Virus record (IMG/VR): IMGVR_UViG_3300027754_000401
Coordinates: 1-25,291 of that record
From: a virus
Strand: one strand, 5' to 3'
Length of the DNA stretch: 25,291 nucleotides
Shown: in pieces, positions 2,907 through 23,682 of the stretch
Layout: the number at the start of each line of letters is the position of its first letter
Numbering within the stretch: position 1 is the stretch's first letter
Notes under the pieces: generated by a model
The model's input: the letters and a program-made list of their open reading frames with translations, nothing else
Told to the model about the DNA's origin: nothing
The model's database searches: none
Program-made: the position numbers and the translations under genes

Positions 2907-3881
2907 TTAATCATTGATGACGAGGGCAGCCAGGGGCAGCTGGGCACCGCCAGAGAATCGGCGCAGGACGTGCCATTCCAATTCGCCCACCCGGTTTTTC
3001 CCACTGCCCCAGGCGGCTTTGCCGGCCACCAGGGCGGCCGTGTTGAAAGTGAACTGGTAATAGTTCAGCACGTCGGCCAGGTAAAGTTTCCGGGCCGTCG
3101 GCAGGGCGGCCGCCATGGAGGCCCCGCGCACTTTGGTGCCAGAGGCGTTTTCCTGCGTATGCAGGGCGGCCAGCACCTCGTCCACGGTGACGGTAAGGGG
3201 CGTGGCCTTTATGACAATGCCCGTATCCATGCGGGTCATGCCAGACAGGCCGCCGGCGTCACTGGTATTTTCCGAAAGGGCCTGGTTGAAATCAATGGTC
3301 CACCCGTCGGCGGTCTGGATCCCCGTCCACACGGCGTGGTCGGGGTCGGTGGGGTCGGCGTCCCATATCCCGGTAAATGCCCGGGTGACAATTTCGCTTT
3401 GCTCGGGGGTGTCGGTCACGGCCCCGTAGGCCAGGCTGGTGACAATGCTGTCGGCCGTCCCGAATTCATCCACCCGCACCGCCGTGAAGGTCAAGGCCCC
3501 CCAGTTTTGTTTGGTGGCGGACAGCATGAGGGAGGGCAGTTTTGTGAGGGCCACGTTGTGGAAAGTGAAACCCGTCTGGCCGGAAAGCAGGGGTTTAATG
3601 GTCAGCACTTTGGGGGATCCCGTGGTGAATAATTGGCTGCCGGGCTGGGCGTTAATGGAGGCCAGGACTTTTGTAATCAGCGTATTGTCCAGGGACCCCG
3701 TGGGGGTGAAGGAAATTGTATAGTAGGCATCCCCCAGGCGTTCGTCCACGGTGCCGTGGGCGTCGGTCTGAATTCCAAAGGTGCGGGTGCGCAGGTCGAT
3801 TTCTACGCCAGCCTGGGACCAGAGTTTCTGGCCGTCGAACGTGATTAAGCAAGGGCCTTTAATGAAGGTGGGGAGGGACAT
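2907..3881 (-). CDS. Putative major tail tube protein
   Basis: A 324-residue protein from ATG 3879-3881. It is predominantly beta-rich: LITFDGQKLWSQAGVEIDLRT near the N-terminus, DAYYTISFTPTGSLDN at about 50-66, and LMLSATKQNWGALTFTAVRVDEFG at about 118-141. This matches the N-terminal tube domain of siphovirus tail tube proteins, which stack as hexameric rings around the DNA channel. It is longer than a minimal tube protein (about 150-250 residues), so a C-terminal decoration or Ig-like region is possible. It follows the tail-terminator-like gene, as in many siphophages. The leader is A/C-rich and lacks a Shine-Dalgarno sequence. Confidence 0.5.
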   Translation of the reverse strand: MSLPTFIKGPCLITFDGQKLWSQAGVEIDLRTRTFGIQTDAHGTVDERLGDAYYTISFTPTGSLDNTLITKVLASINAQPGSQLFTTGSPKVLTIKPLLSGQTGFTFHNVALTKLPSLMLSATKQNWGALTFTAVRVDEFGTADSIVTSLAYGAVTDTPEQSEIVTRAFTGIWDADPTDPDHAVWTGIQTADGWTIDFNQALSENTSDAGGLSGMTRMDTGIVIKATPLTVTVDEVLAALHTQENASGTKVRGASMAAALPTARKLYLADVLNYYQFTFNTAALVAGKAAWGSGKNRVGELEWHVLRRFSGGAQLPLAALVIND

Positions 3882-3908: not shown

Positions 3909-4418
3909 TTAGGTTTCCGGGTCTGGGAAAGTGTCGAATTCGCGGCGGACGGGTTCGTGCATGAGGCCGCCGGATAGGGAGAAAATGAGATCCCAGGCGG
4001 TGATGCCTGGCACGTCGTCACCTGGTTGGATGGCCACCAGGACAATGCCCCCGCCGGTCAGGGTCTGGCCTTCCGTGCCCAGGGGGACGTAGTTTTTCAG
4101 CAGGCAGCCGCAGACTTCGGCCACGTAGTCCGCTGGCTGGCCGGTGCCGGTGTCGGTCCGGTTAATGGGGATATTTTCCCGCACTCGGCAGACGAATTTT
4201 GCCCCGTTATAGTAAGGCGTGGGGATTTCCGGCAGGCCGTGGTCCCCGGAGAGCGGGGCCACCATGACGGCCAGGCCCAGCGTGCCCACGGCGGCGGACA
4301 TTTTGGGCAGGAGGTCCTTGTCATTCTGGGCCACCACGGGAATGGGCGGATCCGCTGCGAAAAAATCATGGCCGGACAGATAGCGGGCCACGGATTGCTG
4401 GACTTCGGTCAGAAACAT
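3909..4418 (-). CDS. Tail terminator-like / neck protein (Mu gp37-like position)
   Basis: A 169-residue protein from ATG 4416-4418, sharing one base with the stop of the glycosyltransferase gene (TAATG). N-terminal helix MFLTEVQQSVARYLSG is followed by alternating strands, including NGAKFVCRVRENIPINR at about 71-88 and TAWDLIFSLSGG near the end. The size, fold pattern and position just before the tube gene fit a tail terminator or minor tail protein (compare DUF1834/Mu gp37). The assignment rests on context and secondary-structure pattern, not on a clear motif. Confidence 0.45.
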   Translation of the reverse strand: MFLTEVQQSVARYLSGHDFFAADPPIPVVAQNDKDLLPKMSAAVGTLGLAVMVAPLSGDHGLPEIPTPYYNGAKFVCRVRENIPINRTDTGTGQPADYVAEVCGCLLKNYVPLGTEGQTLTGGGIVLVAIQPGDDVPGITAWDLIFSLSGGLMHEPVRREFDTFPDPET

Positions 4419-5713
4419 TACGCGGCCCCCCTTTCGAGTTTGGCCCAGCTGGCGGCCCAGTGGTGGACGGCGTAGGCGCGGGGGAAGTTGGCGGCGCGGA
4501 ATTCGGCGGGGTTTAATTCGCCCATCCAGTAAGGGTAAACGGTGGCGGGCAGGAGGCCGACCATTTGCGCGGCCGGCCAGTGGATGGCCACCTGGCCCTG
4601 GTCATCATAAAGGGCGGTCTGCCGGTTGTGGCGGGTCCATTCATGGACGGCGCGGCCGAAAAATCCCGGCCCGGTAATCTGCACAATGTCCCAGATGTTT
4701 TCCGGCTTGCGCGGGGCCACGGCCGCCAGCCTGGTCAGCAGGAAATCCCAGAAGGGATGGCCGGCGGGGCTGCGCAGCAGGCCGATGGCTGGCTGGTCGA
4801 TCTGTTGGAACCCAAAGTGGACGGCCCCGGGGATCCAGAGGGCATCCATGGGGCGCAGAATTTGAAAATCAGTATCCAGATAAAGGCCCCCGAAAAGGCG
4901 CATTAAATTGTAACGGATGGCATCGGCCCGCATGCCCAGCGGGGAGGCCTGGGACAGGCAGAGGTCCGGGGCCATCAGCCACGGGGCCAGCTTTTGCACG
5001 TCGGCGTCCCTCCATAGGCGCAGCTGGTGGTCGGGCAGGTGGGTGGTAATGCTGGCCTGCCAGGCCACCATTTCCGCCGGCAGGGGATCCGGCCCCAACC
5101 AGAGTTGGTGGACGGTGCGGTGGGTGGACAGGGGCATGGGTCCCCGCCAGGCCCAGAGCAGGGAGGCGTCCACCGTCACGGTATAACCGGCCAGGCGCAG
5201 TTCCCCGGCCAGATCGGCCAGGGGTGCCCGGCTTTGCCGGTGGATGGCCAGGAGGGTGGGCCGGGCGGTGGGGGAGGTCCCGTCAAAGGAGGCGGCCACG
5301 GCCGGCCACTGGTCGGGCGTCATAAAAATGGCGTCGGCCTGCATGGCATGGAGGCGCAGGAGGGTGGTCAGGGTGGACAGTTCCACGGCCGGCGTGGTGA
5401 CGGGCATGGCCCCGGCGTGGCAGTTGTCAAAAGGTCCGGGCACCGGGTGCGTGACAAAATGGGCCTGCTGTTCGGTCCAGTCGGCGGCCAGGCCACCGTG
5501 GTGGATGGTCACACCTTGCAGGCCGGCGGCGGCCATGGCCAGGGCGGCAGCCTGCTGGGCCAGGGGTTCCACCAGCAGGACCCGGCACGGCGTGGCCACG
5601 GCCTGCATTTCCAGGGCCACGGCCAGGGCGGGCGTGGCCAGCTGCGGGGCCAGGACCACCACGTGCGGCGGGGCATTCAGGAGGGCGGCCAGTCTGGACA
5701 GGTGCGGTTTCAT
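4418..5713 (-). CDS. Fused FkbM-like / GT32-like (OCH1-type) glycosyltransferase
   Basis: A 431-residue protein starting at ATG 5711-5713, overlapping the upstream stop as ATGA; a TTG at 5759-5761 would add 16 residues but is less likely. Residues 200-431 carry GT32/Gly_transf_sug hallmarks: HQLWLG at 202-207, ADAIRYNLMRLFGGLYLDTDF at 263-283 with the nucleotide-sugar/metal-binding DTD at 280-282, TGPGFF at 347-352, and a closing YAVHHWAASW-type motif near 414-423. Residues about 15-190 have a Rossmann-like pattern (HVVVLAP, RVLLVEP, then GYTVTVD) reminiscent of FkbM methyltransferases, but without a clear SAM glycine motif, so this half may be non-catalytic. It lies between head-tail genes. 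Glycosylation of virion proteins or of host surface glycans is inferred. Confidence 0.75.
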   Translation of the reverse strand: MKPHLSRLAALLNAPPHVVVLAPQLATPALAVALEMQAVATPCRVLLVEPLAQQAAALAMAAAGLQGVTIHHGGLAADWTEQQAHFVTHPVPGPFDNCHAGAMPVTTPAVELSTLTTLLRLHAMQADAIFMTPDQWPAVAASFDGTSPTARPTLLAIHRQSRAPLADLAGELRLAGYTVTVDASLLWAWRGPMPLSTHRTVHQLWLGPDPLPAEMVAWQASITTHLPDHQLRLWRDADVQKLAPWLMAPDLCLSQASPLGMRADAIRYNLMRLFGGLYLDTDFQILRPMDALWIPGAVHFGFQQIDQPAIGLLRSPAGHPFWDFLLTRLAAVAPRKPENIWDIVQITGPGFFGRAVHEWTRHNRQTALYDDQGQVAIHWPAAQMVGLLPATVYPYWMGELNPAEFRAANFPRAYAVHHWAASWAKLERGAA

Positions 5714-5946
5714 TCGGCGGGGGGCATCCAGCGGTAAAAGCTGGCGCGTTGCGTCGTGCAAGGGATCGGCTTTTGGCGGTGTTCAATCACGTGGCCACCA
5801 GGGTGGCGCAGTTCGGAAATGCGGGAATGGACGGCAAAGGCCCCGGACACGGCGGCCAGTTCGGGCATGGGCACCCATTCCCCTGGGGTTTCCATGAGTC
5901 GGGCCAGCACGCGGGCGGCCTGGGTGGTGGCTTTGTTCGGGTCCAT
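5710..5946 (-). CDS. Small helix-turn-helix protein (HTH_39-like)
   Basis: A 78-residue protein from ATG 5944-5946, 2 nt after the connector gene and overlapping the glycosyltransferase start as ATGA. The layout is a compact winged helix: ARVLARLMETPGEWVPMPELAAVSG, AFAVHSRISELRHPGG (recognition-helix region, residues about 37-52), then HVIEHRQKP and SFYRWMP as the wing. This matches the HTH_39-type phage domain, where 'HSRISELR' is the key stretch. A DNA-binding gene embedded in the structural operon could regulate late expression, but no target site is evident. Confidence 0.7.
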   Translation of the reverse strand: MDPNKATTQAARVLARLMETPGEWVPMPELAAVSGAFAVHSRISELRHPGGHVIEHRQKPIPCTTQRASFYRWMPPAE

Positions 5947-5948
5947 GG

Positions 5949-6395
5949 TCAGCGCAGGGGGGTAAAATCAATGGTATCCTCCCCGCCGTAGTCGCCACCG
6001 TCGGGCACGGGGGAGTCGGTGGCGGAAGTGGTCGGGGGGGAAATATAAAAATCACACTTGGCCACGGCGGCCAGGCGTTCGCGTGCGGCCCGCAGCAGGT
6101 CCTTGCGCACGTCGTCAAAGACAATGGACGCGGCCGGCAGGCGGCTGGCCAGCGTGGCCCGCAGGATTTCCAGGGTGGTGGAAACTAACTCGGGGGGAAT
6201 GGTCCCCTCGGTGCCGGCGGCATTGCGGGGGCAGGAAAGCACACTGCCCACCACTTCGGCGCACACGTCCCGGATGGTCGTCGTAATCACGTCCTGCCCA
6301 CTAATCGCTTTGGCGGCAGTGGTGAAGGCGGTCCATTCGGTCTGGGAAAACCGGCTGGCCAGCAGGGTGGTGGTGATTTCAATCCAGGCGGGCAT
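5949..6395 (-). CDS. Head-tail connector (Mu gp36/DUF1320-like)
   Basis: A 148-residue protein from ATG 6393-6395. Helical pattern: ITTTLLASRFSQTEWTAF, DVITTTIRDVCAEVVGSVLS (about 35-54), LVSTTLEILRATLASRLPA and DLLRAARERLAAVAKCDFYI (about 103-122), then an acidic tail. Small all-helical proteins of this size immediately downstream of the capsid gene are usually head completion/adaptor proteins of the gp36/DUF1320 or gp6 type. The family call depends on position and helix spacing. The gene is separated from the capsid gene by an 84-nt gap containing a hairpin. Confidence 0.5.
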   Translation of the reverse strand: MPAWIEITTTLLASRFSQTEWTAFTTAAKAISGQDVITTTIRDVCAEVVGSVLSCPRNAAGTEGTIPPELVSTTLEILRATLASRLPAASIVFDDVRKDLLRAARERLAAVAKCDFYISPPTTSATDSPVPDGGDYGGEDTIDFTPLR

Positions 6396-6479: not shown

Positions 6480-7409
6480 TTAGGTATTGATATTGACGCG
6501 AACCCCGGCCACGGAATTCGTGACGCTGGGGAGCGCATACCAGTCAAACTTGGCAATTTCCTGGCGGCCGTCCGGGGACGTGTAAGCACCTGGCACCATG
6601 AATTTTCCGGCAAGGCGGAAAGTTTTCATAAAGCTGGGGTCGTGGCGGGTCGGGTTCGCCATGGTGGCAAACACGATAACCGACGTGTCCAGAATAAAGC
6701 CCATGGCGGCGGTGAGGCCGTCGGCGGCCGAATCGTAAACCGTCATTGCAATCTGATTCTGGGGGGCACCCATGAGCAGGCTTTGAATGTCGGCAATGGT
6801 CGGGTTGACCATTTCCTTTTTCCCGCCGGACGCAAAGCGGCCTTTTACGCTGGAATGATTCTTAAACCGACGGAAGGCCGTTGGCCCCCAGAGGATCCGA
6901 ATATTCATCAGGCTGCCGGACTTGGCGGCCTTGGCCACGGCAATGATTTTCTGGTCGAGTTCGTCCACCAGGTCAATGTTGGCGGTGGCGAGGGACAGAT
7001 CCGTGCCGGCTCCCAGAGTGGTAAGGGCCAGGTTTACGGTTTCGTATTCATGGGCCAGGCCGCCCAGCTGGGCGCAAATGTCGGCACCTTCCTGCAAGGA
7101 AACTTGCAATTCAGGGCCGGCCAGGGTTTCGATTTCGTCAATGGGGAAATCCAGTGCATTTGCCACCAGGTTGGCGGTGGTTTCCGTTCCAGAAAGGCCC
7201 ACGATAGTGGCGGCACCATTGGCGGCGCGTTTGGTCTGCGGGATTTTGAAACGGGTTTTTTCGTCGAAGGTCCAGTAACGGAAACGGGTCCCGGGGACGT
7301 TGACGGTAGGGGAAAGGAATTCGGCCAGGGCACCAATGGCGGCCTGGGCGGCACCTTGCGAATAGTTCTTAATGGTGGCCGTCATGGCGGCGTCGGAGAG
7401 TTTAGACAT
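6480..7409 (-). CDS. Major capsid protein
   Basis: A 309-residue protein from ATG 7407-7409, within the usual 300-350 range for Mu gpT and B3/D3112-type capsid proteins. It has an N-terminal helix (AAMTATIKNYSQGAAQAAIGALAEFL), then VPGTRFRYWTFDEKTRFKIPQTKRA (about 38-62), resembling the extended arm region. DQKIIAVAKAAKSGSLMNIRILWGPTAFRRFKNH (about 151-184) resembles an A-domain core with the typical 'vlwG-p-afr-f' turn. The C-terminus (PSVTNSVAGVRVNINT) is beta-rich. It follows protease and decoration genes in canonical order. Hairpins flank the gene, and its A/C-rich leader has no Shine-Dalgarno sequence; both may support high expression. Confidence 0.8.
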   Translation of the reverse strand: MSKLSDAAMTATIKNYSQGAAQAAIGALAEFLSPTVNVPGTRFRYWTFDEKTRFKIPQTKRAANGAATIVGLSGTETTANLVANALDFPIDEIETLAGPELQVSLQEGADICAQLGGLAHEYETVNLALTTLGAGTDLSLATANIDLVDELDQKIIAVAKAAKSGSLMNIRILWGPTAFRRFKNHSSVKGRFASGGKKEMVNPTIADIQSLLMGAPQNQIAMTVYDSAADGLTAAMGFILDTSVIVFATMANPTRHDPSFMKTFRLAGKFMVPGAYTSPDGRQEIAKFDWYALPSVTNSVAGVRVNINT

Positions 7410-8064: not shown

Positions 8065-8081
8065 GGGAATTGTTCGGGGCC

Positions 8082-9149
8082 TTACTTGACTGCGGCGCGG
8101 ATTTCGGCCTCGGCTGCGGCCCAGGCTTGTTGTTGGGAATAACCGTTTTCCTTGCGCAGGATGGTGGCGCGGGCGGCCACGGCGGCGGCCTGCGGTTCGG
8201 TCAGGGCTGCGGCGGCCTGGACGGTGCCCGGACGTTCGGCGGCGGGGATATTGCTATCGGCCGGCACGGCACTGGTGAGGGCCAGGGAGTTCATGGCCTG
8301 GACGGCGGCGGCACCGTCGCGGATGATGGTGGTCTTCCACCATTCCTGGGTGGCGGTGTCTTTCGGGGCGATGCGGCCGGCAGTCACGGCTGCGGTCACG
8401 GCCTTTTCGGCGTCGTCTTTATCCCGCAGGGCGCATTTGGCCTTGAGTGCTTCCAGTTCCTGCATGGCCTCGGCGGCGCATTCGGCAGCGGGTTCGGCGG
8501 GTTTTTGGAGTTCGGCCAGGCGGGTGGCCAGGAGTTCGGCGGCGTTGTCGGCGGTGGATTCCGCCTCGGTGAGGAGGCCGGAGGCCACCAGGGTTTTCAT
8601 CAGTTCGGGGTTCATGGGATCAGGGGTCTGGGGTTGGTTTTCAGGGTTCGCCAGATCATCCGGCAAAGTTTTCTTGGCCGTCAGTGCGGCCATGGTGCGG
8701 AAAGCGGGGTCGTTCACCAGGCCGCCAATCGGGCCGGTGGGCAGCAGGCCCAAGACGGTTTCCGTTGCAGGGTCATAGGCAAACTGGGGGGAAAAGTAAT
8801 TGTGCTCCTTGGCTTCCACCGCCGCGCGGCCGCCGGGCGTCCAGCCTGCAAAGAGCATCACCCCTTTGCCTTCGTGCCAGGAGAACTGCGTGGGCCATCC
8901 GCTGGCGCGTTTGCCTTCGTGGTCGAAGTCAATAAATGGCAAGATGGTGCCCTCCCGGCGGGCCATTAAATCGGCCTGCAGTTTCGCGGCGGTGGCGGCG
9001 GTCACGGTCACTTTCAGCCGGGCAGGCTCGCCATTCAGGCTGGCGTCAATGGTGGATTTCCCGGCAGGCAGGTAAAGGATCCAGTCGGAAAGTTTCCCGG
9101 GGGGCAGCGGCGTGGCCAGGGAGGCGGAAAGGGTGGCGGGAGGGTTCAT
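8082..9149 (-). CDS. Head maturation protease/scaffold (Mu I-like)
   Basis: A 355-residue protein from ATG 9147-9149, directly abutting the portal stop. Residues 1-150 match the Mu I protein (gp32) protease domain: LSDWILYLPAG, GTILPFIDFDHEGKRASGW (68-85), and EHNYFSPQFAYD followed by TVLGLLPTGPIGGLVNDPAF (131-150). The latter two are the conserved 'yfSP-f-...-G...gaLtNdPa' pattern of PF10123. Residues 180-300 are acidic and Ala/Glu-rich with coiled-coil potential, as expected of the fused scaffold. An internal ATG at 8613-8615 (Met179) could yield a separate scaffold like Mu gpZ, but no Shine-Dalgarno sequence supports it. The protein directs capsid assembly and is cleaved on maturation. Confidence 0.85.
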   Translation of the reverse strand: MNPPATLSASLATPLPPGKLSDWILYLPAGKSTIDASLNGEPARLKVTVTAATAAKLQADLMARREGTILPFIDFDHEGKRASGWPTQFSWHEGKGVMLFAGWTPGGRAAVEAKEHNYFSPQFAYDPATETVLGLLPTGPIGGLVNDPAFRTMAALTAKKTLPDDLANPENQPQTPDPMNPELMKTLVASGLLTEAESTADNAAELLATRLAELQKPAEPAAECAAEAMQELEALKAKCALRDKDDAEKAVTAAVTAGRIAPKDTATQEWWKTTIIRDGAAAVQAMNSLALTSAVPADSNIPAAERPGTVQAAAALTEPQAAAVAARATILRKENGYSQQQAWAAAEAEIRAAVK

Positions 9150-10742
9150 TTATTCGGCGGGGGTTTCGGCGGTGGCCATTTTCTGGAATTCTTCCCAGCC
9201 CAGTTCCATGGCGTAGGCCAGGGCGGTTTCGTAAACGTCAGCCAGATCCTTGACAAAGGTCTGCGGGGTGGTGGCAGCAGCCTGGGCGGCGGCGGCACGG
9301 GCGTTGGCGGCGGGGTCGGCGGGTTCCCCGCGTTCCTCGGCGGTGAGGGGGCCGGGGTGATCCTTGCCCGCCGGCACGGCGGTGGGCTGGTGGGTGGTGG
9401 GTGCTCCCATGCCCGACCCCGGGGCCTGCGGCGGCGGTGGGGGGGCGGTGAATTTGAATCCCAGGGACGGTTCGGCGGCATCCGGCAGCGGCACCCCGTG
9501 CCGTTCATAGAGCCAGGCCTCGGGCAGGGGCATGCCCATGGATAGCAGAATGCGGTCCCGTTCGGCCTCGCTTTTGGCGTCCTTTGTTTCGGGCATGTCC
9601 ACCCGGATTTCCGGGCAGAGTTCGGGCACGGTGCCCAGATTCAGGTGCAGGACGGCGGGCACGAGTTGTTCGGTCAGGACGACGGCCACTTCCCGGCAAA
9701 TGCTTTCCAGTCGCTGGGAACGGACGGATCGGTGGACGGCCCCCAGGGCATAGGATCCCCCACCGTCCCCGGCGTCACTGGTCAGGGTTTGGCCCAGCAG
9801 GAGAATATCACAAGCGGCGTCGGCAATGTCGCCCAGGAGTTTGGCGGGCAGATCCCCGGCGGATTTCTGGGCCTCCAAAAACTGCATTTTCACCCCCTCG
9901 GGGAAGGCGGCCCAGCCTGCGGTCCCGATATTGGCCAGCATGCCGGCCACGGCGTCCCGGGCGGTTTTATCCCCCTTGGGGTAATTGGCCCACCGGAAGG
10001 GGATATTAAAAAGCTGGGCGTGCGACATCATCCATTCCAGGCCGAAAACTGCGGCCACCCAGTATTTGGCCAGGCTGCGCAGGGTGGCGGAAACGGCCGG
10101 GTGGCCGGCGTGGCCTGGTTGGATGGAAACCAGAAACTTGTTGGCGGGGAAATCTTCCAGGGCCCTGGTGCGGGGTCCCCCTGGGCGCAGTTGCAGGCGG
10201 TCCGTGGGGTCCTCCATGTCCGACGTGATGCCGTAGGGGTAGGAATACCACCCGGCGGAAACGGCCCGGAAGGCGCGGGGCAGCAGGGCCTGGTCCTGGG
10301 TGCGGTGCCAGAGGATTTCCACCACGGCGTGGCCGGTGGCCGTGCTTTCGGCAATGGCAGAGCAGGCTTTTTCAAATCCCACTTCCAGGCGGCGGGCGTC
10401 GGGTTTCAGGCCATACATGGCGCGTTCCAACAGGGAGGCGGCGGCCTCCTGGGCGGGGTCCGGTTTGGCCCCGGCGTAGCTGGCGGCGTGGACGGCAAAG
10501 GGGGCGGAGGCGGCAGCATCCCGGATGGTGCGCAGGTTGTGCTGCAATCTGGGCCAGGTGTCGGCCATGATTTCAAATAGGCGGGACTGGTCCCGCAGGT
10601 CCCCCTGCATGGCGGACACTAGAATGGTTTCCACTTCGTTGGGAAGGAGGCGGCGGCGCATGTCCTCCGCCCATCTATCTTCCGGCCGGGCGGCGGTGCT
10701 GCTGGTCAGCAGGGGATCCTGATAATTTGGGGCGTCAGTCAT
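9150..10742 (-). CDS. Portal protein (DUF935, Mu gp29-like)
   Basis: A 530-residue protein from ATG 10740-10742, overlapping the terminase stop as ATGA; Mu gp29 is of similar length. The N-terminus has the family pattern RRLLPNEVETILVSAMQGDLRDQSRLFEIM (about 30-59), then TWPRLQHNLRTIRDAAASAPF. Later come SAIAESTATGHAVVEILW (about 127-144), KFLVSIQPGHAGHPAVSATLRSLAKYWV (the conserved 'hp...g-lR-l...w' region) and AACDILLLGQTLTSDAGDGGGSYALGAVH. These are typical DUF935 portal blocks. The C-terminus (about 420-530) is Pro/Ala-rich low complexity. The portal forms the dodecameric vertex through which DNA is packaged and binds the terminase encoded upstream. Confidence 0.9.
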   Translation of the reverse strand: MTDAPNYQDPLLTSSTAARPEDRWAEDMRRRLLPNEVETILVSAMQGDLRDQSRLFEIMADTWPRLQHNLRTIRDAAASAPFAVHAASYAGAKPDPAQEAAASLLERAMYGLKPDARRLEVGFEKACSAIAESTATGHAVVEILWHRTQDQALLPRAFRAVSAGWYSYPYGITSDMEDPTDRLQLRPGGPRTRALEDFPANKFLVSIQPGHAGHPAVSATLRSLAKYWVAAVFGLEWMMSHAQLFNIPFRWANYPKGDKTARDAVAGMLANIGTAGWAAFPEGVKMQFLEAQKSAGDLPAKLLGDIADAACDILLLGQTLTSDAGDGGGSYALGAVHRSVRSQRLESICREVAVVLTEQLVPAVLHLNLGTVPELCPEIRVDMPETKDAKSEAERDRILLSMGMPLPEAWLYERHGVPLPDAAEPSLGFKFTAPPPPPQAPGSGMGAPTTHQPTAVPAGKDHPGPLTAEERGEPADPAANARAAAAQAAATTPQTFVKDLADVYETALAYAMELGWEEFQKMATAETPAE

Positions 10743-12502
10743 GCTGAAAGGAGGGGAAAGCGGGCGGTTTGGCGCAGAGGGGCGGGGAGAATGAAACAGG
10801 GCAGGCGTTTAATGGCCCTTAAACGCTCGCGTAAGGCCGTGGCCACCCCTCCCGCGAAACGAGACAGGGGGCGGGGGGCCTCGGCGGGCCTCTGCGGGCA
10901 AATTTGGGCGGACTGGTGAAACCGGATAAATGGCACGGGGGAAATGGACTGGCCGCCCAGTATCGTGTCCTCGGCATCCTGGGCGGTCCAGGAATCGGCG
11001 GGCGCGGATCGGTGGGCATGTTCGGCCAGGGCCATGGCCCAAAATCCGTCAGCGTGGCCGGCGGCGTCACGGGTGGCGGCGATGGTCACGCGGCCGGTGG
11101 CCGTGGTGACACGTTCGGGTTTCCGCAGGTCCTCCCGCAGCCAGCGGTCATAAGGGATGGAAATCATGCCGTCATCGAAAAGGGTGGATAGATCCAGGGC
11201 CATGATTTCGGTAATGGCGGCGGTGACGGCCCGGCGGCCGTCGGTCAGCAGTTCGGGCCGGGCCTCTATGGGCACGCGGGTGGAAAAATTAATGCCCATG
11301 ACTTTGGCCCCGTGCTTTTCCTGGGCGTATTCGTAAAGGCCCAGGCCCAGGCCGGTGGCATCGTAGGCAATGCGGACCATGTTCGGGAAATCCATGATTC
11401 GGTCAATCTGGGCCTGCTGGGCGGGCAGTCGCATGCCCCGCATTTTCAGGATGGCCACCACGTGCCGGCGTTTGTCCGGGCCGATAGCATAGACCACCAC
11501 GCACGTGAAATCCCCCACCCGGGCCACGTCGCAGCCAGCAAAAAGTTCCTGGCTGCCGGGCAGCCTGTAAAGGCGGGCCAGGGTGGCCTGCGTCCAGGCT
11601 TGTTCGTCAATGGCAAACGGCAGCTGGTGCTCGGCGGCCTGGATGGCCTCCCACGAAAGCACGCTGCCCAGTTCGTCGGATGATTCACATTCGTAGTTCT
11701 GGCGGTAGGCTTTTCTATCGACGGCCTCGGCCTCGGCCTCGGCCGGCGTCAGCAGGGTGCCGGGGCGTTTTAGGCTGGCAATTTTGATTTCACCGGCGGC
11801 CCAGGCGTCGGACCGGCGGACCCGATTAACAGGGAATTCCCCATTTGTGGCGAAACCGTGGAACAGTTTTTTCGTGCCGTTGCGGGTGCTGCAAATGCGG
11901 CACAGAAAATCCGGGTTGGCGGAAATGATCGGTTCGGCGGCCTCCCAAATGGCCCGGTCATCTTCATGGAAAGCGAATTCATCCAGGATCAGATCCCCGG
12001 AAAATCCCCGGGCGGTGCGGGGGGATGCGGCCAGGACCAGGATGCGGCCCAGTTTCCCGCCCACCGTGATGCGAATCTGAAATTTCATGTCCTCAAATTT
12101 CACGGTGTCCAGATCCTCGGGGAATTCCTGGACCACGGCCTGGCCCATCTTCCGGCAGACTTCGGCGGCCTTCATGGCGAATTCCTGGCCGTTGTCTTTG
12201 GAGTTGGACAGCACTACAACCAGCCATTCGGACGTTTCCGGCTTTGCCAGCTGCGTCAGGATCCGGCGCACGGCCCAGTTGGCCATGGTGAAACTTTTGC
12301 CAATCTGGCGGGACCAGTCCACCACCAGGACCTTGCTCTCCATATCATTGAACACGGGCATTTGATAACCGCGCAGCTGGATGCGCGGCGCAGGGATGGC
12401 CACCCCCAGCAGGCCGCAGGCCAGCAGGGCCGGGGCCAGGCCCAGGAAGGAAAGCAGGAGCACGGCAACGGGCACCAATAACCACAAAAGAACCTGTTTC
12501 AT
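10739..12502 (-). CDS. Terminase large subunit (Mu gp28-like) with hydrophobic N-terminus
   Basis: A 587-residue protein from ATG 12500-12502, overlapping the small-terminase stop as ATGA. ATPase motifs: adenine/Q-like LRGYQ (43-47), Walker A SRQIGKS (64-70), Walker B LILDEFAF (171-178) and STRNG coupling motif (205-209). RNaseH-like nuclease acids are likely D325 in CDVARVGD, D381 in YDATGLG and D485 in HADGFW. The enzyme pumps DNA into the capsid and cuts at headful. Unusually, residues 1-36 are strongly hydrophobic, forming one or two membrane-like segments ahead of the normal start of the fold. An in-frame GTG near codon 34 could be the true start, but it has no better ribosome signal. 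Confidence 0.88.
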   Translation of the reverse strand: MKQVLLWLLVPVAVLLLSFLGLAPALLACGLLGVAIPAPRIQLRGYQMPVFNDMESKVLVVDWSRQIGKSFTMANWAVRRILTQLAKPETSEWLVVVLSNSKDNGQEFAMKAAEVCRKMGQAVVQEFPEDLDTVKFEDMKFQIRITVGGKLGRILVLAASPRTARGFSGDLILDEFAFHEDDRAIWEAAEPIISANPDFLCRICSTRNGTKKLFHGFATNGEFPVNRVRRSDAWAAGEIKIASLKRPGTLLTPAEAEAEAVDRKAYRQNYECESSDELGSVLSWEAIQAAEHQLPFAIDEQAWTQATLARLYRLPGSQELFAGCDVARVGDFTCVVVYAIGPDKRRHVVAILKMRGMRLPAQQAQIDRIMDFPNMVRIAYDATGLGLGLYEYAQEKHGAKVMGINFSTRVPIEARPELLTDGRRAVTAAITEIMALDLSTLFDDGMISIPYDRWLREDLRKPERVTTATGRVTIAATRDAAGHADGFWAMALAEHAHRSAPADSWTAQDAEDTILGGQSISPVPFIRFHQSAQICPQRPAEAPRPLSRFAGGVATALRERLRAIKRLPCFILPAPLRQTARFPLLSA

Positions 12503-13065
12503 GCCTCTGCCCTCCTTTCTGCGTCTGGCGGTCCCCAGAGGGCCAGCACCAGCTGGGCCACCCGTTGGTCGTCGGTAAGTTTCGTATTGCCGGCCAGATC
12601 CCGCAAAAGTTGCGGGTGTTCCTTGGCGGCCTTTAGCACGCGGCCGGCGGCGTCCCACTGGAAACGATCCGTGGCCAGGGCCAGTTCCTTTTGTTTCACT
12701 TCCAGCTTTCTTTCGTCCAGGTCGGCCCGGGCGAGTAACATCATTTCCCGCACGGACAGGTCCCGAAAACTGGCCTCGTAAATTTGCTTTGCCAGTCCCT
12801 GGCGGGCGGCCCTGGTGACGTTGCCCAGCTTTAATTTTTTCAGTTCGGCGGCGGTGCCGGTGGCGCGTTGCACTCTCCAGGTCAGGCCGTGCCGGCCCAG
12901 CAGGTTGGACAATGCCCCGGCACTGGTATGAATGCCCAGATCATGCAAATGGCCGCCCACGGCCTCCAGGCTTTGGCCTTCCACCAGGAGCATGAAAAGC
13001 ACGTCCTCCCGCTGGGCGGGGGTCAGTTTCGCATAGAGCGAATCACTGCGGGGTTTCTGGGCCAT
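12499..13065 (-). CDS. Terminase small subunit (DUF3486, Mu gp27-like)
   Basis: A 188-residue protein from ATG 13063-13065, which has a GGGAGG-rich stretch upstream and is one of few plausible Shine-Dalgarno cases here; a GTG at 13090-13092 would add nine residues. Residues about 8-62 (SLYAKLTPAQREDVLFMLLVEGQSLEAVGGHLHD, then TSAGALSNLLGRHG) form an HTH DNA-binding region. A helical body follows with SFRDLSVREMMLLARADLDERKLEVKQKELALATDRFQWDAA, which fits the DUF3486 pattern. The family recognises phage DNA and loads the large subunit, whose gene overlaps it. The order gp25-gp26-gp27-gp28 matches Mu. Confidence 0.8.
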   Translation of the reverse strand: MAQKPRSDSLYAKLTPAQREDVLFMLLVEGQSLEAVGGHLHDLGIHTSAGALSNLLGRHGLTWRVQRATGTAAELKKLKLGNVTRAARQGLAKQIYEASFRDLSVREMMLLARADLDERKLEVKQKELALATDRFQWDAAGRVLKAAKEHPQLLRDLAGNTKLTDDQRVAQLVLALWGPPDAERRAEA

Positions 13066-15994: not shown

Positions 15995-16885
15995 TTATTT
16001 CGTGGAAGGTTCGTTGCCTGTTTTGACCAGGAACAGGTCCGTTAGTTCCTTGATTTTGGACGATTGCTTTTCCCTTACATAAGTTTCTGCTTTTTCTTGG
16101 TTGGCGGCTTTGTAGATCTTGGCCCCGGGGACGGATTGCTGCTGGCAGAGGATTGCGGTGATGCAGAGGCCTGTGCGCGACGGGCCTGCGGCGGCCGTCC
16201 CGTTGGTCAGGGCATTGCGCAGTTCCAACAGGGCACTCGCTGCCTCCAGGTTTGCACCACTAGTCAGTCGTCCCAAGTATTCCCGCGTAAGGGATGGGTT
16301 GACGGCGGCGGAAAGTATGAATGCGGCGGCGACTGGGGCATTGCGGGACGGCTTGAAATTCGCTTTGTCGAGGACGGGCATAATGTAAGCCAGTTCCGAA
16401 TTCCAGATGGCGATGATGTCCATCGTGGTGGAAAGGGAAATGCGACGCGCTGCCCTGGATCCGTGCATCACAAAAATGGCCAGAGCGCGGGCGGTTGAGC
16501 ATATTAAGTTCGGGTTGCCTGCATAACATCCCATGAGTTTAAGCCGGTCTGGAAGGGACCGCAGCGCACCGCAATCCACAATGTCCATGGTTTTGACCTT
16601 GCCCTGCTCCACGGGAAATCCTTGTAGCACCAGCATAGGCACCGTCACCCCTGCCCGACGGACGGCATGGAGCCGGTGCTGCCCGTCAAAAAGTCGGCCC
16701 TCGGCATCGAACGCGATGCCCTGCGGGGAGAGTTTCCAATTCCCGTTTACCATGTCGTTGGCATACATAGCCACCGATGATTGCTTTACTGTGCGGTTCC
16801 TCCCCATCGACGCCAGCCATTCCCGGGCCATGGACGGAGAGACGTTTTTAATAGTGGCGAGAATTTTTGGATGGGTGGTTTTCAT
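15995..16885 (-). CDS. ParB/Srx-fold (DGQHRL) domain protein
   Basis: A 296-residue protein from ATG 16883-16885, overlapping the upstream stop as ATGA. Residues about 45-92 contain NWKLSPQGIAFDAEGRLFDGQHRLHAVRRAGVTVPMLVLQGF. DGQHRL (67-72) is the phosphate/nucleotide-binding signature of ParB/sulfiredoxin-like domains common in phages and actinobacterial elements. The rest (about 110-296) is mostly helical and may bind DNA. Possible roles are a CTP- or ATP-dependent DNA switch or a nuclease; none is proven. The nucleotide composition looks lower in GC and less C-skewed than its neighbours, hinting at separate acquisition. It is the last gene before the early terminator. Confidence 0.75.
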   Translation of the reverse strand: MKTTHPKILATIKNVSPSMAREWLASMGRNRTVKQSSVAMYANDMVNGNWKLSPQGIAFDAEGRLFDGQHRLHAVRRAGVTVPMLVLQGFPVEQGKVKTMDIVDCGALRSLPDRLKLMGCYAGNPNLICSTARALAIFVMHGSRAARRISLSTTMDIIAIWNSELAYIMPVLDKANFKPSRNAPVAAAFILSAAVNPSLTREYLGRLTSGANLEAASALLELRNALTNGTAAAGPSRTGLCITAILCQQQSVPGAKIYKAANQEKAETYVREKQSSKIKELTDLFLVKTGNEPSTK

Positions 16886-17160
16886 GGGATGCGTGGAAAT
16901 GGCACGGGGGCCGGGGTGATTTTGTTTATGGCAGTATGCAAGGCCTCTTTCACCAGTCCGTAGGCGGTGGAAAGTGTCTGGTTGGGGGTCAGGCGCAGGC
17001 CCACGGCCAGGCGGGTGGCCTCTGCGATCATGGCCGGCAGATCCAGCTGGAAACGCAGGGCCAGGGCCTCGTAGCAGAGGGCAATGTTTCCCTCGGGCTG
17101 GTGGCGGTGGGCGGCCATCCATTCATGGACGGCGGCGGGGGTGATTATTTCAAAGGCCAT
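16882..17160 (-). CDS. Hypothetical early protein
   Basis: A 92-residue protein from ATG 17158-17160; upstream in-frame sequence is proline low-complexity read-through and is excluded. It is mostly helical: ITPAAVHEWMAAHRHQPEGNIALCYEALALRFQ, then LPAMIAEATRLAVGLRLTPNQTLSTAYGLVKEALHTAIN. It overlaps the preceding gene by 11 nt and the ParB-like gene by 4 nt, so translation is probably coupled. No family is recognised. Confidence 0.65.
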   Translation of the reverse strand: MAFEIITPAAVHEWMAAHRHQPEGNIALCYEALALRFQLDLPAMIAEATRLAVGLRLTPNQTLSTAYGLVKEALHTAINKITPAPVPFPRIP

Positions 17161-17778: not shown

Positions 17779-18432
17779 TTATCCCTCGGGGGTTTCGGTG
17801 GGATCTGCCAGGAGGGCGGCCACCAGGCGGTCCACGTTGGTGGTGGTGGACACGGCCACGGTTTCGTCCTTCCCGGGCACCACGGTGACGCCAATCTGGG
17901 CCAGCTGGGCGTCGGTGAGGGTGCCCAGGGCGGCCTTGGCCAGTTCGGGGGCCGGCTGGCGGACCAGGGCGGGGGCCAGGTCCGGCAGGTGGGTGCGGAT
18001 AATCTGGATGGTGTCGGCCACGTTGGTGACTTCCAGCTTGTCCTGGCCCTTTTTGAAACCGCAGCGGATCCCATGAATTACCAGGGTGCGGGGTTTCACG
18101 AAAAGGTGGGGCATGGATTCCACCATGGCCAGCAGGTTGGCCCGGGCCTCCTGGGCTTTGGCCACGGCCTTGGTGAGGGGGCGCAGGTGCTGGCGGCGCA
18201 CCATTTCCATGAGTTCGTGGGCCTCGCCTACTCTTTCGGCCAGGGCGGCGTGGGCAGTGGCGAATTTTTCCGCCAGGTTGGAAATCAGATCAATGGCGGC
18301 GGTAGGTGGGTGGACTTTGGACTGGGTGGCGTTGTCGGTTTCGGTGGGCATGGTGGTGGTGGCGGTGTTTTGGTTTTGGTTTTGGGTTTCGGCTGCGTCG
18401 GCAGCCAAAAATTTTTCGTGTTCGTAGTGCAT
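17779..18432 (-). CDS. Gam-like host-nuclease inhibitor (tentative)
   Basis: A 217-residue protein from ATG 18430-18432, sharing one base with the upstream stop (TAATG). A low-complexity Gln/Asn/Thr N-terminus includes a QNQNQN stretch from a GGTTTT repeat. A long helix follows (SNLAEKFATAHAALAERVGEAHELMEMV, to about residue 75). The C-terminal domain reads VKPRTLVIHGIRCGFKKGQDKLEVTN (about 112-137), later AQLAQIGVTVVPGKDETVAV. A long coiled-coil helix followed by a 'G-x-i-x-f-r' strand pair and closing 'lGv.v...e.f.v' resembles Mu Gam (PF07352), which binds DNA ends and blocks RecBCD. Gam sits in a similar early position in Mu. Confidence 0.5.
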   Translation of the reverse strand: MHYEHEKFLAADAAETQNQNQNTATTTMPTETDNATQSKVHPPTAAIDLISNLAEKFATAHAALAERVGEAHELMEMVRRQHLRPLTKAVAKAQEARANLLAMVESMPHLFVKPRTLVIHGIRCGFKKGQDKLEVTNVADTIQIIRTHLPDLAPALVRQPAPELAKAALGTLTDAQLAQIGVTVVPGKDETVAVSTTTNVDRLVAALLADPTETPEG

Positions 18433-20484: not shown

Positions 20485-21555
20485 TTATTCGGCGGTGTCG
20501 GCCAGCGCATAGCCTTCATGAATCAGCGATTCATGAGCGGCCTTAAAGGCTGCGGCCATGGGCTTGTCGGCCAGGGCCGGGGCCTGGTGGAAATCGGCGG
20601 CCACCCGCAGGTGGTGTTTGAGGCTGCGCAGGTGGCCACGTTCGGCTGCCACCTGGCGGGCCAGCTGGCGCAGCTGGCCGGCGTGGGCCGGGGCCTCCCG
20701 GGCCAGCATGGCGTCCACGGCCGTGCGCAGGTCGTCGGGCTTGTATTTGGCCTCCCGGCGCAGGCCGACGCGGGAAAAAAGCTGGTCATCGGTCCGCAGC
20801 TTCATAATCATGGCGGGATTTCCCACCAGGACAATGGGGCACCCGGTCCGGTCATGCAGATCAAAAAGGAGGGAAAAGGCCCCGACGGTCATCTTGTGCG
20901 CGTTGTCAATTACCAGGACCCCGGCACGGTCCTGCAAGCGGGCGCAGATCCAGTCGGCCTTGGTATCGGTGCGGCGGTTGAAACTGCGGGTTTCCATTTG
21001 CTGGAAAATGGAATTCAGCACGGCGTCCCGGCCGCCGGACCAGGCGAAAATGGCCAGAGTGATGGCCAGGGGATTGGCCGCCTTGTAACGTGCGATCCCT
21101 TCCGTTTTGCCCAGGCCGGCCTGGCCGTGGAAAACTCCAATTCCCTTGACGGATTTCACGGCGGAAATAAACCGGTCCAGGCTGCGGGAAACCGACGTTT
21201 CAAAGCTGGCATCGTCGGCCACTTTGCGGGTGGCCAGAGTCTTAAGAAAATCTTCCAGCTTGCTTTCAAATGCGCCAATGGATCCGGGGAAATCCGGGGG
21301 GGCGGCGTCCCCCTGGCGGGCGTAAAGGGACACGTAGGCGGTATTTTGCCCCAGGGCCTTGGCCACCCGGTTGCGGGACCACTCGGGCACCCCGTCGGGG
21401 CCGGCGTGGGCCAGGAGGCGGGAGAGTTGGCCCACCAGGTCCAGGCGGGCCTTGGGGCGCAGGGCCAGGGCGGCGGCGGGGCCGATGCCGTCAAAGGTGG
21501 CCATCACGGCGGGTCTGCCGTTTTTGTCATTGTAGATGCGGGGTGATTCAATCAT
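20485..21555 (-). CDS. MuB-like AAA+ ATPase (target selection / transposase activator)
   Basis: A 356-residue protein from ATG 21553-21555. The N-terminal HTH-like part (about 35-80, with WSRNRVAKALGQNTAYVSLYAR) matches the MuB DNA-binding region. The AAA+ core has Walker A GQAGLGKT (144-151), Walker B VLVIDNAH (213-220) and a sensor-like IVLVGNP (241-247). The usual Walker B glutamate (DEAD in Mu) is replaced by Asn218. A helical C-terminal domain follows (RQLARQVAAERGHLRSLKHHLRVAA). MuB forms ATP-dependent filaments on target DNA and stimulates MuA. The gene lies 39 nt downstream of the transposase gene, as in Mu. Confidence 0.88.
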   Translation of the reverse strand: MIESPRIYNDKNGRPAVMATFDGIGPAAALALRPKARLDLVGQLSRLLAHAGPDGVPEWSRNRVAKALGQNTAYVSLYARQGDAAPPDFPGSIGAFESKLEDFLKTLATRKVADDASFETSVSRSLDRFISAVKSVKGIGVFHGQAGLGKTEGIARYKAANPLAITLAIFAWSGGRDAVLNSIFQQMETRSFNRRTDTKADWICARLQDRAGVLVIDNAHKMTVGAFSLLFDLHDRTGCPIVLVGNPAMIMKLRTDDQLFSRVGLRREAKYKPDDLRTAVDAMLAREAPAHAGQLRQLARQVAAERGHLRSLKHHLRVAADFHQAPALADKPMAAAFKAAHESLIHEGYALADTAE

Positions 21556-21594
21556 GGTCGTGGTTATTGGAGTTTGTGGTTTTTGGTTTGCCGG

Positions 21595-23682
21595 TTACTC
21601 ACCGGAAAAGGGGTCGAATTCGGCCGGGGCCGGCAGGGCCTCGGCGGGGGCTGCGGCCAGGGCCATTTCCGCCAGGGCGGCGGCCCCGGATTTGGCGGCC
21701 TGGGCTGCGTGTTCGGTGGGGGTCAGGGGGGCGGAATTCAGGAGGCGGGCATTCCAGGCGGCGTCACTGGTCCGGCGGTGGACTTCCCCGGCGGCGCGGC
21801 GTTCCACGTCCATGCGTTCGGGGGTGGTGGCAGCCACGGCGCGGCCGTAATTCATCATCAGCGCGTCCACGTCTTTTCTGGACGGGGTGACAAAGGCCGG
21901 GGCCTCACCGATCCATGCCCCCCGTCTGGCCCCGTGGCCCTCGCAGACCTGGACGCGGGAAGGGTCCTGGGGATTGAGAAAGCAAAGGTATTTTTCCCCA
22001 CGTTTTAACTGGATCCGGTGGCCGTGTTCATTCTTGACGCTGGCCAGGTAAACCATGGGGTCGGCGGAAATGGTGCGGTCCTCAAATAGGATTTCCAGGC
22101 GGTCCGAAACCGTCCTTTCAATGGCCGATTCCATGCCCATGAGGGCCACACAATCCCGGGGGGCCAGGCGCACCAGGTCCCCGGCCCCGGCCTGCCATGC
22201 TTCCCGCCGGCTGCGGCGGCGGATCCGGGAAAATCCAGGTTGCTGGACAAAGGCGGACACGGCGGCGCGGGCCTCGGTGGGCATTTCGGCCAGCTTTTCC
22301 TGCCCCCACCAGCTGGACCCGTCCAGGGTGAATTCAGAAACGAGATTTCCGCAGTCCTCCCATTGCGTCAGTTCGTGGTCGGTGCGGTCCTCCAGGCCTC
22401 CAATAATCTCATTGGCCAGGGTGACGAATTGGCCCCAGGGCATGACGGGCAGGGCCATGAGTTGCTGGCGTTCAAAGGGCAGGGCCTCCATGGCCTTTAG
22501 GTAAAATTTATTGGCCCGCAGAATGCCCTCGTTTTCCTCGGGGGCGTGGTCCCGATTAATGCCCGTGGCACCAGGGAGGGCGGAAAACTCCGTGCGGTGG
22601 ATGGAAAAGCTGGATTCCAGGGGGGCCTTGTATCTGAAATTTCCCGTGCGTTGGCCGGGGTAAAGCATTCCCTTAAAAGCAGGATCCCCAAAGCGGCCGG
22701 ACCGGTCAATGGTGACGGCCCCTTTTGTCAGGAAATGCAGTCTTTCCTCAAATGCTTTGGACCCGCTGGCCGTGCCGTGTTCCCAGACCAGGGTGGTGCC
22801 CGTTTTGCGATACCCAAAATTGGTCAGCAGGTGAATGACAAACCACTCGAAAGTGGCCTGCGTCAGGCCCCTTTTAATGCCGGTGCCGGCATCCAAAATG
22901 GTGGGCTGGTATCCCCTGCAAATATTGTGCGCACTGGCATAGTCCAGGGCATGGAATGCCTGGGGGCGGGTGGCCTGCTGATTGATGCCCAGGAAGTTCA
23001 CGTAAACGTCCACCTGTTCGTCGTCAAAAAAGATGATTTCCCCAGGCAGGACCCCCACCCGGCTGGCGCGGATGGATGGCAGATAATTGCTAGCGGCCTT
23101 GGTTCCCTGGTGGCGCAGGGCCAGCTGGTAATTGCTGGGCTTGTGGCGGGAAAGTGTCTTATAGGACCAGGCTGCCGGCAGGCCGGTGGCCAGGGTGCGT
23201 TTCGGCGGGGTGGAATAGCCAGGGATTGCCATGGCCGTGTCCCCCTTTTCCCATGCTGCCAGGCGCAGCTGTAAACTGCGCCAGGCCTTTTTGCGGGTGC
23301 GGTCCCGTTGGAAACTTTCCACCATGCCCAGCCAGAATTGAAGGAATGCCTCGGGCAGCTGGGAGGTGTTGGGGGATTTCGCCCGGTTGACCAGTCCCTG
23401 CCACCCCTCGGCCAGCCATTTGTCATATTTCCGCCGGATGGTGGGGACCGACTGCCCCACGATGGCCGCCACCCGGGCCACGGCGGCCGCCCTGGTGCCG
23501 TGGCCGGCGGCGTGGATGCCTTCCAGATGCGGGATCAGGGCCAGCACTTCGGCCCGGGCCTTGGGGGCCACCCGGTGCCAGTCTGCATTATCACCCATGG
23601 GGATGATTTTAGCAGGTTCGGCGGCGGGCAGCATTTGCAGGCCGGGGGCCTGGTCGGGGGTGGTGGTAAGGATGGAAAGCAT
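21595..23682 (-). CDS. Mu-type DDE transposase (MuA-like)
   Basis: A 695-residue protein from ATG 23680-23682; MuA is 663 residues. The N-terminal part contains helix-turn-helix end-binding regions (for example RAAAVARVAAIVGQSVPTIRRKYDKWL at 64-90). The RNaseH-like core includes EIIFFDDEQVDVYVNF (215-230, first catalytic Asp at 220 or 221) and KAPLESSF (352-359, catalytic Glu356). The segment aligned with the second Asp, LVWEHGTASG (298-307), has Glu301 instead; 301 to 356 is 55 residues, like MuA's 56. A beta-barrel domain (about 490-585) and an Ala-rich tail follow. The enzyme joins phage ends to target DNA for integration and replicative transposition. Confidence 0.92.
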   Translation of the reverse strand: MLSILTTTPDQAPGLQMLPAAEPAKIIPMGDNADWHRVAPKARAEVLALIPHLEGIHAAGHGTRAAAVARVAAIVGQSVPTIRRKYDKWLAEGWQGLVNRAKSPNTSQLPEAFLQFWLGMVESFQRDRTRKKAWRSLQLRLAAWEKGDTAMAIPGYSTPPKRTLATGLPAAWSYKTLSRHKPSNYQLALRHQGTKAASNYLPSIRASRVGVLPGEIIFFDDEQVDVYVNFLGINQQATRPQAFHALDYASAHNICRGYQPTILDAGTGIKRGLTQATFEWFVIHLLTNFGYRKTGTTLVWEHGTASGSKAFEERLHFLTKGAVTIDRSGRFGDPAFKGMLYPGQRTGNFRYKAPLESSFSIHRTEFSALPGATGINRDHAPEENEGILRANKFYLKAMEALPFERQQLMALPVMPWGQFVTLANEIIGGLEDRTDHELTQWEDCGNLVSEFTLDGSSWWGQEKLAEMPTEARAAVSAFVQQPGFSRIRRRSRREAWQAGAGDLVRLAPRDCVALMGMESAIERTVSDRLEILFEDRTISADPMVYLASVKNEHGHRIQLKRGEKYLCFLNPQDPSRVQVCEGHGARRGAWIGEAPAFVTPSRKDVDALMMNYGRAVAATTPERMDVERRAAGEVHRRTSDAAWNARLLNSAPLTPTEHAAQAAKSGAAALAEMALAAAPAEALPAPAEFDPFSGE

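Follow-up and report, generated by a model that had tools for sequence, protein, structure and literature searches.

What is a glycosyltransferase doing among the head and tail genes of a phage? The question is raised by a gene on the minus strand of a virus record of 25,291 nucleotides, all of which was analyzed and is referred to here as the window. The gene encodes a protein of 431 amino acids. An earlier note on this DNA, whose coordinates for the gene proved exact, had described the product as an OCH1-type glycosyltransferase fused to a Rossmann-like FkbM-type region and had suggested that it may decorate virion proteins or alter host glycan receptors. We analyzed both halves of the protein, the surroundings of the gene and the occurrence of similar genes in related and unrelated phages.

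The phage and its head-tail operon

The window (25.3 kb) represents a Mu-like transposable phage, as it carries MuA- and MuB-like genes together with a terminase, a phrog_113 portal, a head protease and a major head protein (Table 1). The best cultured match of the portal is that of Akkermansia phage Chantilly (33.6%). Portals with 40-45% identity occur in Verrucomicrobiota genomes (G644, G526, G344 and G215), and a portal match at E 1e-15 is present in 16 of the 288 genomes of one Verrucomicrobiota order. These closest portals point to a Verrucomicrobiota bacterium as the probable host. Three further genes on the minus strand were noted in addition. A weak match to Mu Gam at positions 17782-18432 (17.3 bits, below the cut-off) fits a Mu-like early region. 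The small protein encoded at 19226-19840 matches the thumb of DNA polymerase beta-type enzymes (33.5 bits) and, weakly, their palm, and is a predicted PolX-like nucleotidyltransferase. The gene at 15995-17122 strongly matches phrog_5931 (E 1e-43), a phage family whose function is unknown, and is for the most part without a Pfam family.

Table 1. Features of the window that bear on the glycosyltransferase gene and its phage.
Feature	Position	Strand	Evidence or detail
324-aa ORF, conserved in syntenic phages	2907..3881	-	no family match
Conserved 169-aa ORF, bounding the variable slot downstream	3909..4418	-	
Fusion of an orphan N-terminal domain and a GT32 glycosyltransferase domain, 431 aa	4418..5713	-	ORF list, overlaps
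GT32 (Och1-like) GT-A glycosyltransferase domain, residues 196-431	4421..5128	-	Pfam, hhalign, model
Residues 1-195, N-terminal domain without detectable relatives	5129..5713	-	coding by codon statistics, GC3 0.86
Internal ATG, residue 193, start point of free-standing GT32 proteins	5135..5137	-	
78-aa ORF directly upstream, overlaps the GT start	5710..5946	-	resembles a winged helix by eye only; without Pfam match
Head-tail adaptor, bounding the variable slot upstream	5949..6395	-	phrog_195
Major head protein	6480..7409	-	phrog_1005
Portal protein	9150..10742	-	phrog_113
Large terminase	10739..12658	-	
Mu-type transposition genes	20485..23682	-	MuB-like 20485-21555, MuA-like 21595-23682

The gene lies between connector and tail genes, as the earlier note had stated. 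Its start overlaps the stop of the upstream ORF (ATGA) and its stop overlaps the start of the downstream gene (TAATG). On the head side, the 78-aa ORF stands between it and the adaptor, which is 38-40% identical to the adaptors of five related contigs (L007, L008, L026, L194 and L200). On the tail side, it is followed by the 169-aa ORF, which also precedes the tube-like ORF in four of these contigs (L007, L008, L194 and L200) and is possibly a tail-completion protein, and then by the 324-aa ORF, which is tube-like by reading only and on that basis probably the tail tube. Codon statistics back the frame of the gene in both its N-terminal and its C-terminal half (GC3 0.86 and 0.82, respectively). 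Codon use is phage-like, the frame is unbroken and every conserved catalytic position is retained.

An Och1-type enzyme with an orphan N-terminal domain

The gene matches PF04488 with 26.7 bits against a curated cut-off of 23 (29.5 bits in a second search), and hhalign of the C-terminal half to phage GT32 proteins reached 99.89% over 197 columns. All the motifs noticed earlier are present, namely HQLW (residues 202-205), DTD (280-282), TGP (347-349) and HHW (417-419). In an alignment of 27 GT32 rows, R267, G276, D280 and D282 are invariant and H202, D264, G275, G348, P394 and W419 nearly so. A structure model built with this alignment, with pLDDT values mostly of 85-97 for residues 200-425, matches Och1 (PDB 9n3s) with a Z score of 17.6 over 217 residues, YeGT (8ovt) with 18.4 and Legionella SetA with 16.3, and the DTD motif, located in conserved columns, sits in the GT-A fold. 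The Pfam match, the hhalign comparison and the likeness of the model to Och1 thus bear out the OCH1-type assignment, and residues ~195-425 are a bona fide GT32/Och1-type GT-A glycosyltransferase. Judging from its motifs and modelled fold, the C-terminal half is probably an active, metal-dependent (DxD) enzyme. With the alpha-1,6-mannosyltransferase Och1 it shares the GT-A fold, the DxD motif, H202, D264, R267, the GG pair, TGP and HHW at an identity of only 14-19%. It differs from Och1 in that it is encoded by a phage and fused to an orphan N-terminal domain, and no signal or membrane anchor was found; no transmembrane segment was seen in the 431-aa protein, in which the best 19-residue hydropathy is 1.7.

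Identity as a glycosylating toxin was considered and rejected. Fold and profile matches to toxins arise because the GT-A fold is common to both, and the protein has no delivery or binding domain. Prediction of the structure from the single sequence gave a mean pLDDT of 32. Peptide-pattern searches of viral_contigs and genome_contigs yielded no close relative of the whole protein, and an alignment of six distant phage GT proteins was too divergent to be used as a search query.

Residues 1-195 behaved differently from the confidently modelled C-terminal half, with pLDDT values of 26-60. Pfam yielded nothing for them even at E 10, tblastn and genome searches gave no convincing match, and no solved structural relative came to light; two weak genome matches that were inspected belong to an IclR-type regulator and an iron-type alcohol dehydrogenase and are therefore attributed to chance. 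At E 0.1, PF05050 matched control genomes but nothing in the window. In hhalign, residues 1-195 scored 12.6 against 66 phage FkbM sequences, whereas the best of 40 shuffles scored 14.4-16.9. Direct comparison with the FkbM sequences of L003 and L075 shows that they lack both the motif I (SAM-binding) glycines and the DVEG (D-x-E-G) motif. The FkbM-type assignment of the earlier note is thus unsupported, and a by-eye pattern likeness to the FkbM of MW202462 was not borne out. In residues 1-62, the succession of predicted helices and strands is compatible with a Rossmann fold in low-confidence models and by-eye alignment only. The N-terminal half is best described as a divergent domain, perhaps a decayed methyltransferase-like module. 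It is very improbable that the protein is a bifunctional enzyme in which an N-terminal FkbM methyltransferase methylates the sugar that the C-terminal half transfers. The adjacency of GT32 and FkbM genes in many phages (also in L072, L075, L082 and L083) and the Rossmann-like order of residues 1-62 in the low-confidence models would suit such an enzyme, but the lack of both FkbM motifs, the empty Pfam search and an hhalign score no better than shuffles speak against it.

The internal ATG at residue 193 is possibly a second start or a trace of the fusion point. It coincides with the start point of free-standing GT32 proteins, which would suit a fusion of formerly separate frames, and a short GT32-only product from this ATG is possible.

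Distribution and origin of the gene

Related contigs were collected via the portal (36 contigs, 37 loci) and via the terminase (80), about 117 in all, with a few records in both sets. Many are fragments, and the strongest cases are those that span the slot itself. Our own GT32 profile, applied at E 1 with filters off, detected no GT32 in either set. A PF04488 search of 36 related records was likewise empty; it had found no match in its control genomes either, and as a positive control the family search was applied to the window and to three further records, in all of which it succeeds. Nor was GT32 present in eight Verrucomicrobiota prophage regions of 20 kb. Phage Chantilly and the Mu-like Verrucomicrobiota prophages share a related portal, protease and other head genes with the window but, unlike it, have no GT32 in the regions read. 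Behind the adaptor, L007, L008, L026, L194 and L200 carry a fibre-like gene and small ORFs instead, and several other related contigs a gp10-like gene. The same slot of L187 is occupied by a D12-class DNA adenine methylase (8066-8887). Homology between the protein encoded at 373-1125 of the window and the fibre-like genes of L007 and its kin was not found. The conservation sought by the earlier note is thus missing at the locus, and the GT gene is not core to this phage group. It is dispensable for assembly, because phages with the same structural genes do without it.

The nearest relative found is a free-standing GT32 of 248 aa on a Verrucomicrobiota chromosome (G634:C6:18342-19037; L257), which is 38% identical over ~230 aa to the GT domain of the window, including the C-terminal HHW end, but has no N-terminal domain. 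It lies close to a gene that, by reading only, probably encodes a UDP-galactopyranose mutase, a surface-glycan setting. In a GT32 tree that was made before this relative was found and does not include it, another chromosomal Verrucomicrobiota GT32 (L052) stands beside that of the window on a long branch with support of 95/80. Acquisition from the GT32 genes of other phages was rejected, since the tree neighbour is chromosomal and the G634 protein is closer still in identity. The lack of GT32 in related phages, together with a chromosomal nearest relative, identifies the gene by sequence comparison as captured cargo, horizontally acquired in this phage lineage. The simplest interpretation is that the phage took it over from a GT32 on the host side.

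GT32 genes of unrelated phages were surveyed in the 31 viral loci nearest to that of the window, picked by sequence and not by position. In L060, the gene directly follows the major head protein and precedes the head-tail adaptor, and in L075 it lies between the major head protein and a structural protein, together with an FkbM and another methyltransferase. It also follows the major head protein in L066, L072, L087 and L088, precedes the adaptor in L064, L074 and L083, precedes the tail tube in L070 and is found between terminase and portal in L077. In five loci (L061, L065, L067, L086 and L090) it is not, or not visibly, in the head module. Beyond this set, closely packed adjacent GT32 and FkbM genes were seen in more than 40 further viral contigs (L091-L143; also L003), and the annotated member MW202462 (ct2t2046) has such a pair upstream of the terminase. 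These pairs, like those of L075 and L083, resemble the window in having GT32 beside or within head or packaging genes. They differ from it in that they consist of separate genes with an intact FkbM, whereas the upstream part in the window is fused and unrecognizable as FkbM. In four of the loci (L064, L066, L070 and L071), GT32 is fused to a second glycosyltransferase domain of the GT2/GT7 type. In Microbacterium phage Magritte, a GT32 gene precedes the terminase and portal at a distance of a few genes. The earlier note had considered absence from related phages, combined with random cargo in unrelated places, to be evidence against its proposal. Much of this holds: related phages lack the gene, and GT32 is mobile cargo in many unrelated phages, but its placement looks less than random, several copies being located inside the head-connector module. 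This recurrent placement fits the idea of virion decoration.

Possible roles of the enzyme

The reading we favour, with a probability of roughly one half, is that a captured late-operon GT32 with an acceptor-choosing N-terminal domain glycosylates a phage virion protein. Produced together with the head and tail proteins in the late phase of infection, the enzyme would use a nucleotide-sugar of the host as donor in the cytoplasm. In a metal-dependent reaction, it would pass the sugar on to a simultaneously synthesized protein, for which the capsid, adaptor and tail proteins of the phage are the likeliest candidates. The N-terminal domain would probably bind or position this acceptor. Operon position and the recurrent pattern in other phages make a virion protein a more likely acceptor than a host glycan. 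The surface-glycan setting of the G634 relative argues against it, as does the success of phages that have the same structural genes but no GT32, and a late-expressed GT32 could act on anything in the cell. Glycosylated capsids have been described for mycobacteriophages (Freeman et al., 2023, cited in PMC11256854). As proposed for the window, the phage-encoded glycosyltransferases of Che8 and Rita are considered to modify proteins of the virion, and for these phages glycans on the capsid are reported; in the related mycobacteriophage Maravista, the genes lie near the 3' end of the genome and not in the head-tail operon as in the window (PMC11256854).

The enzyme may instead modify the host surface, which we regard as possible but less likely, by adding a sugar to lipopolysaccharide, capsule or another cell-surface glycan precursor; the receptor would thereby be masked against superinfection or altered in lysogens. 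GT32 and FkbM enzymes are usually part of surface-glycan clusters, the G634 relative is found near the probable mutase gene and the phage, being Mu-like, is probably temperate. However, conversion genes of temperate phages usually stand apart with their own promoter, whereas this gene is embedded among late structural genes and overlaps both of its neighbours at its start and stop. No promoter-like site was detected on its strand in the region scanned, and no flippase or bactoprenol partner gene was seen in the window. The gene could also be a passenger, recently captured into a slot of gene exchange and as yet without a selected role. Its absence from all related phages read would agree with this, as would the occupation of the same slot by fibre-like genes in five contigs and by the D12 methylase in L187. 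Such a passenger is nevertheless unlikely in view of the intact frame and catalytic positions, the phage-like codon use and the recurrence of GT32 in the head module of unrelated phages.

The virion reading can be extended to a more general proposal, namely that a new N-terminal domain directs GT32 to virion proteins while the particles assemble, and that this exemplifies a common phage habit, in which GT32, with or without FkbM, encoded among the capsid, connector and portal genes of unrelated phages glycosylates the particles. We consider this extension doubtful at present. Taken alone, the gene makes a modest point, as an enzyme of host type that was captured and bears an unexplained domain at its N-terminus. 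The enzyme domain itself is ordinary and well identified; it is the location that is interesting. Most known cases of virion glycosylation in phages come from mycobacteriophages. Should the repeated occurrence of GT32 and FkbM genes next to those for capsid and connector reflect decoration of virions, this modification would be far commoner in environmental phages than reported.
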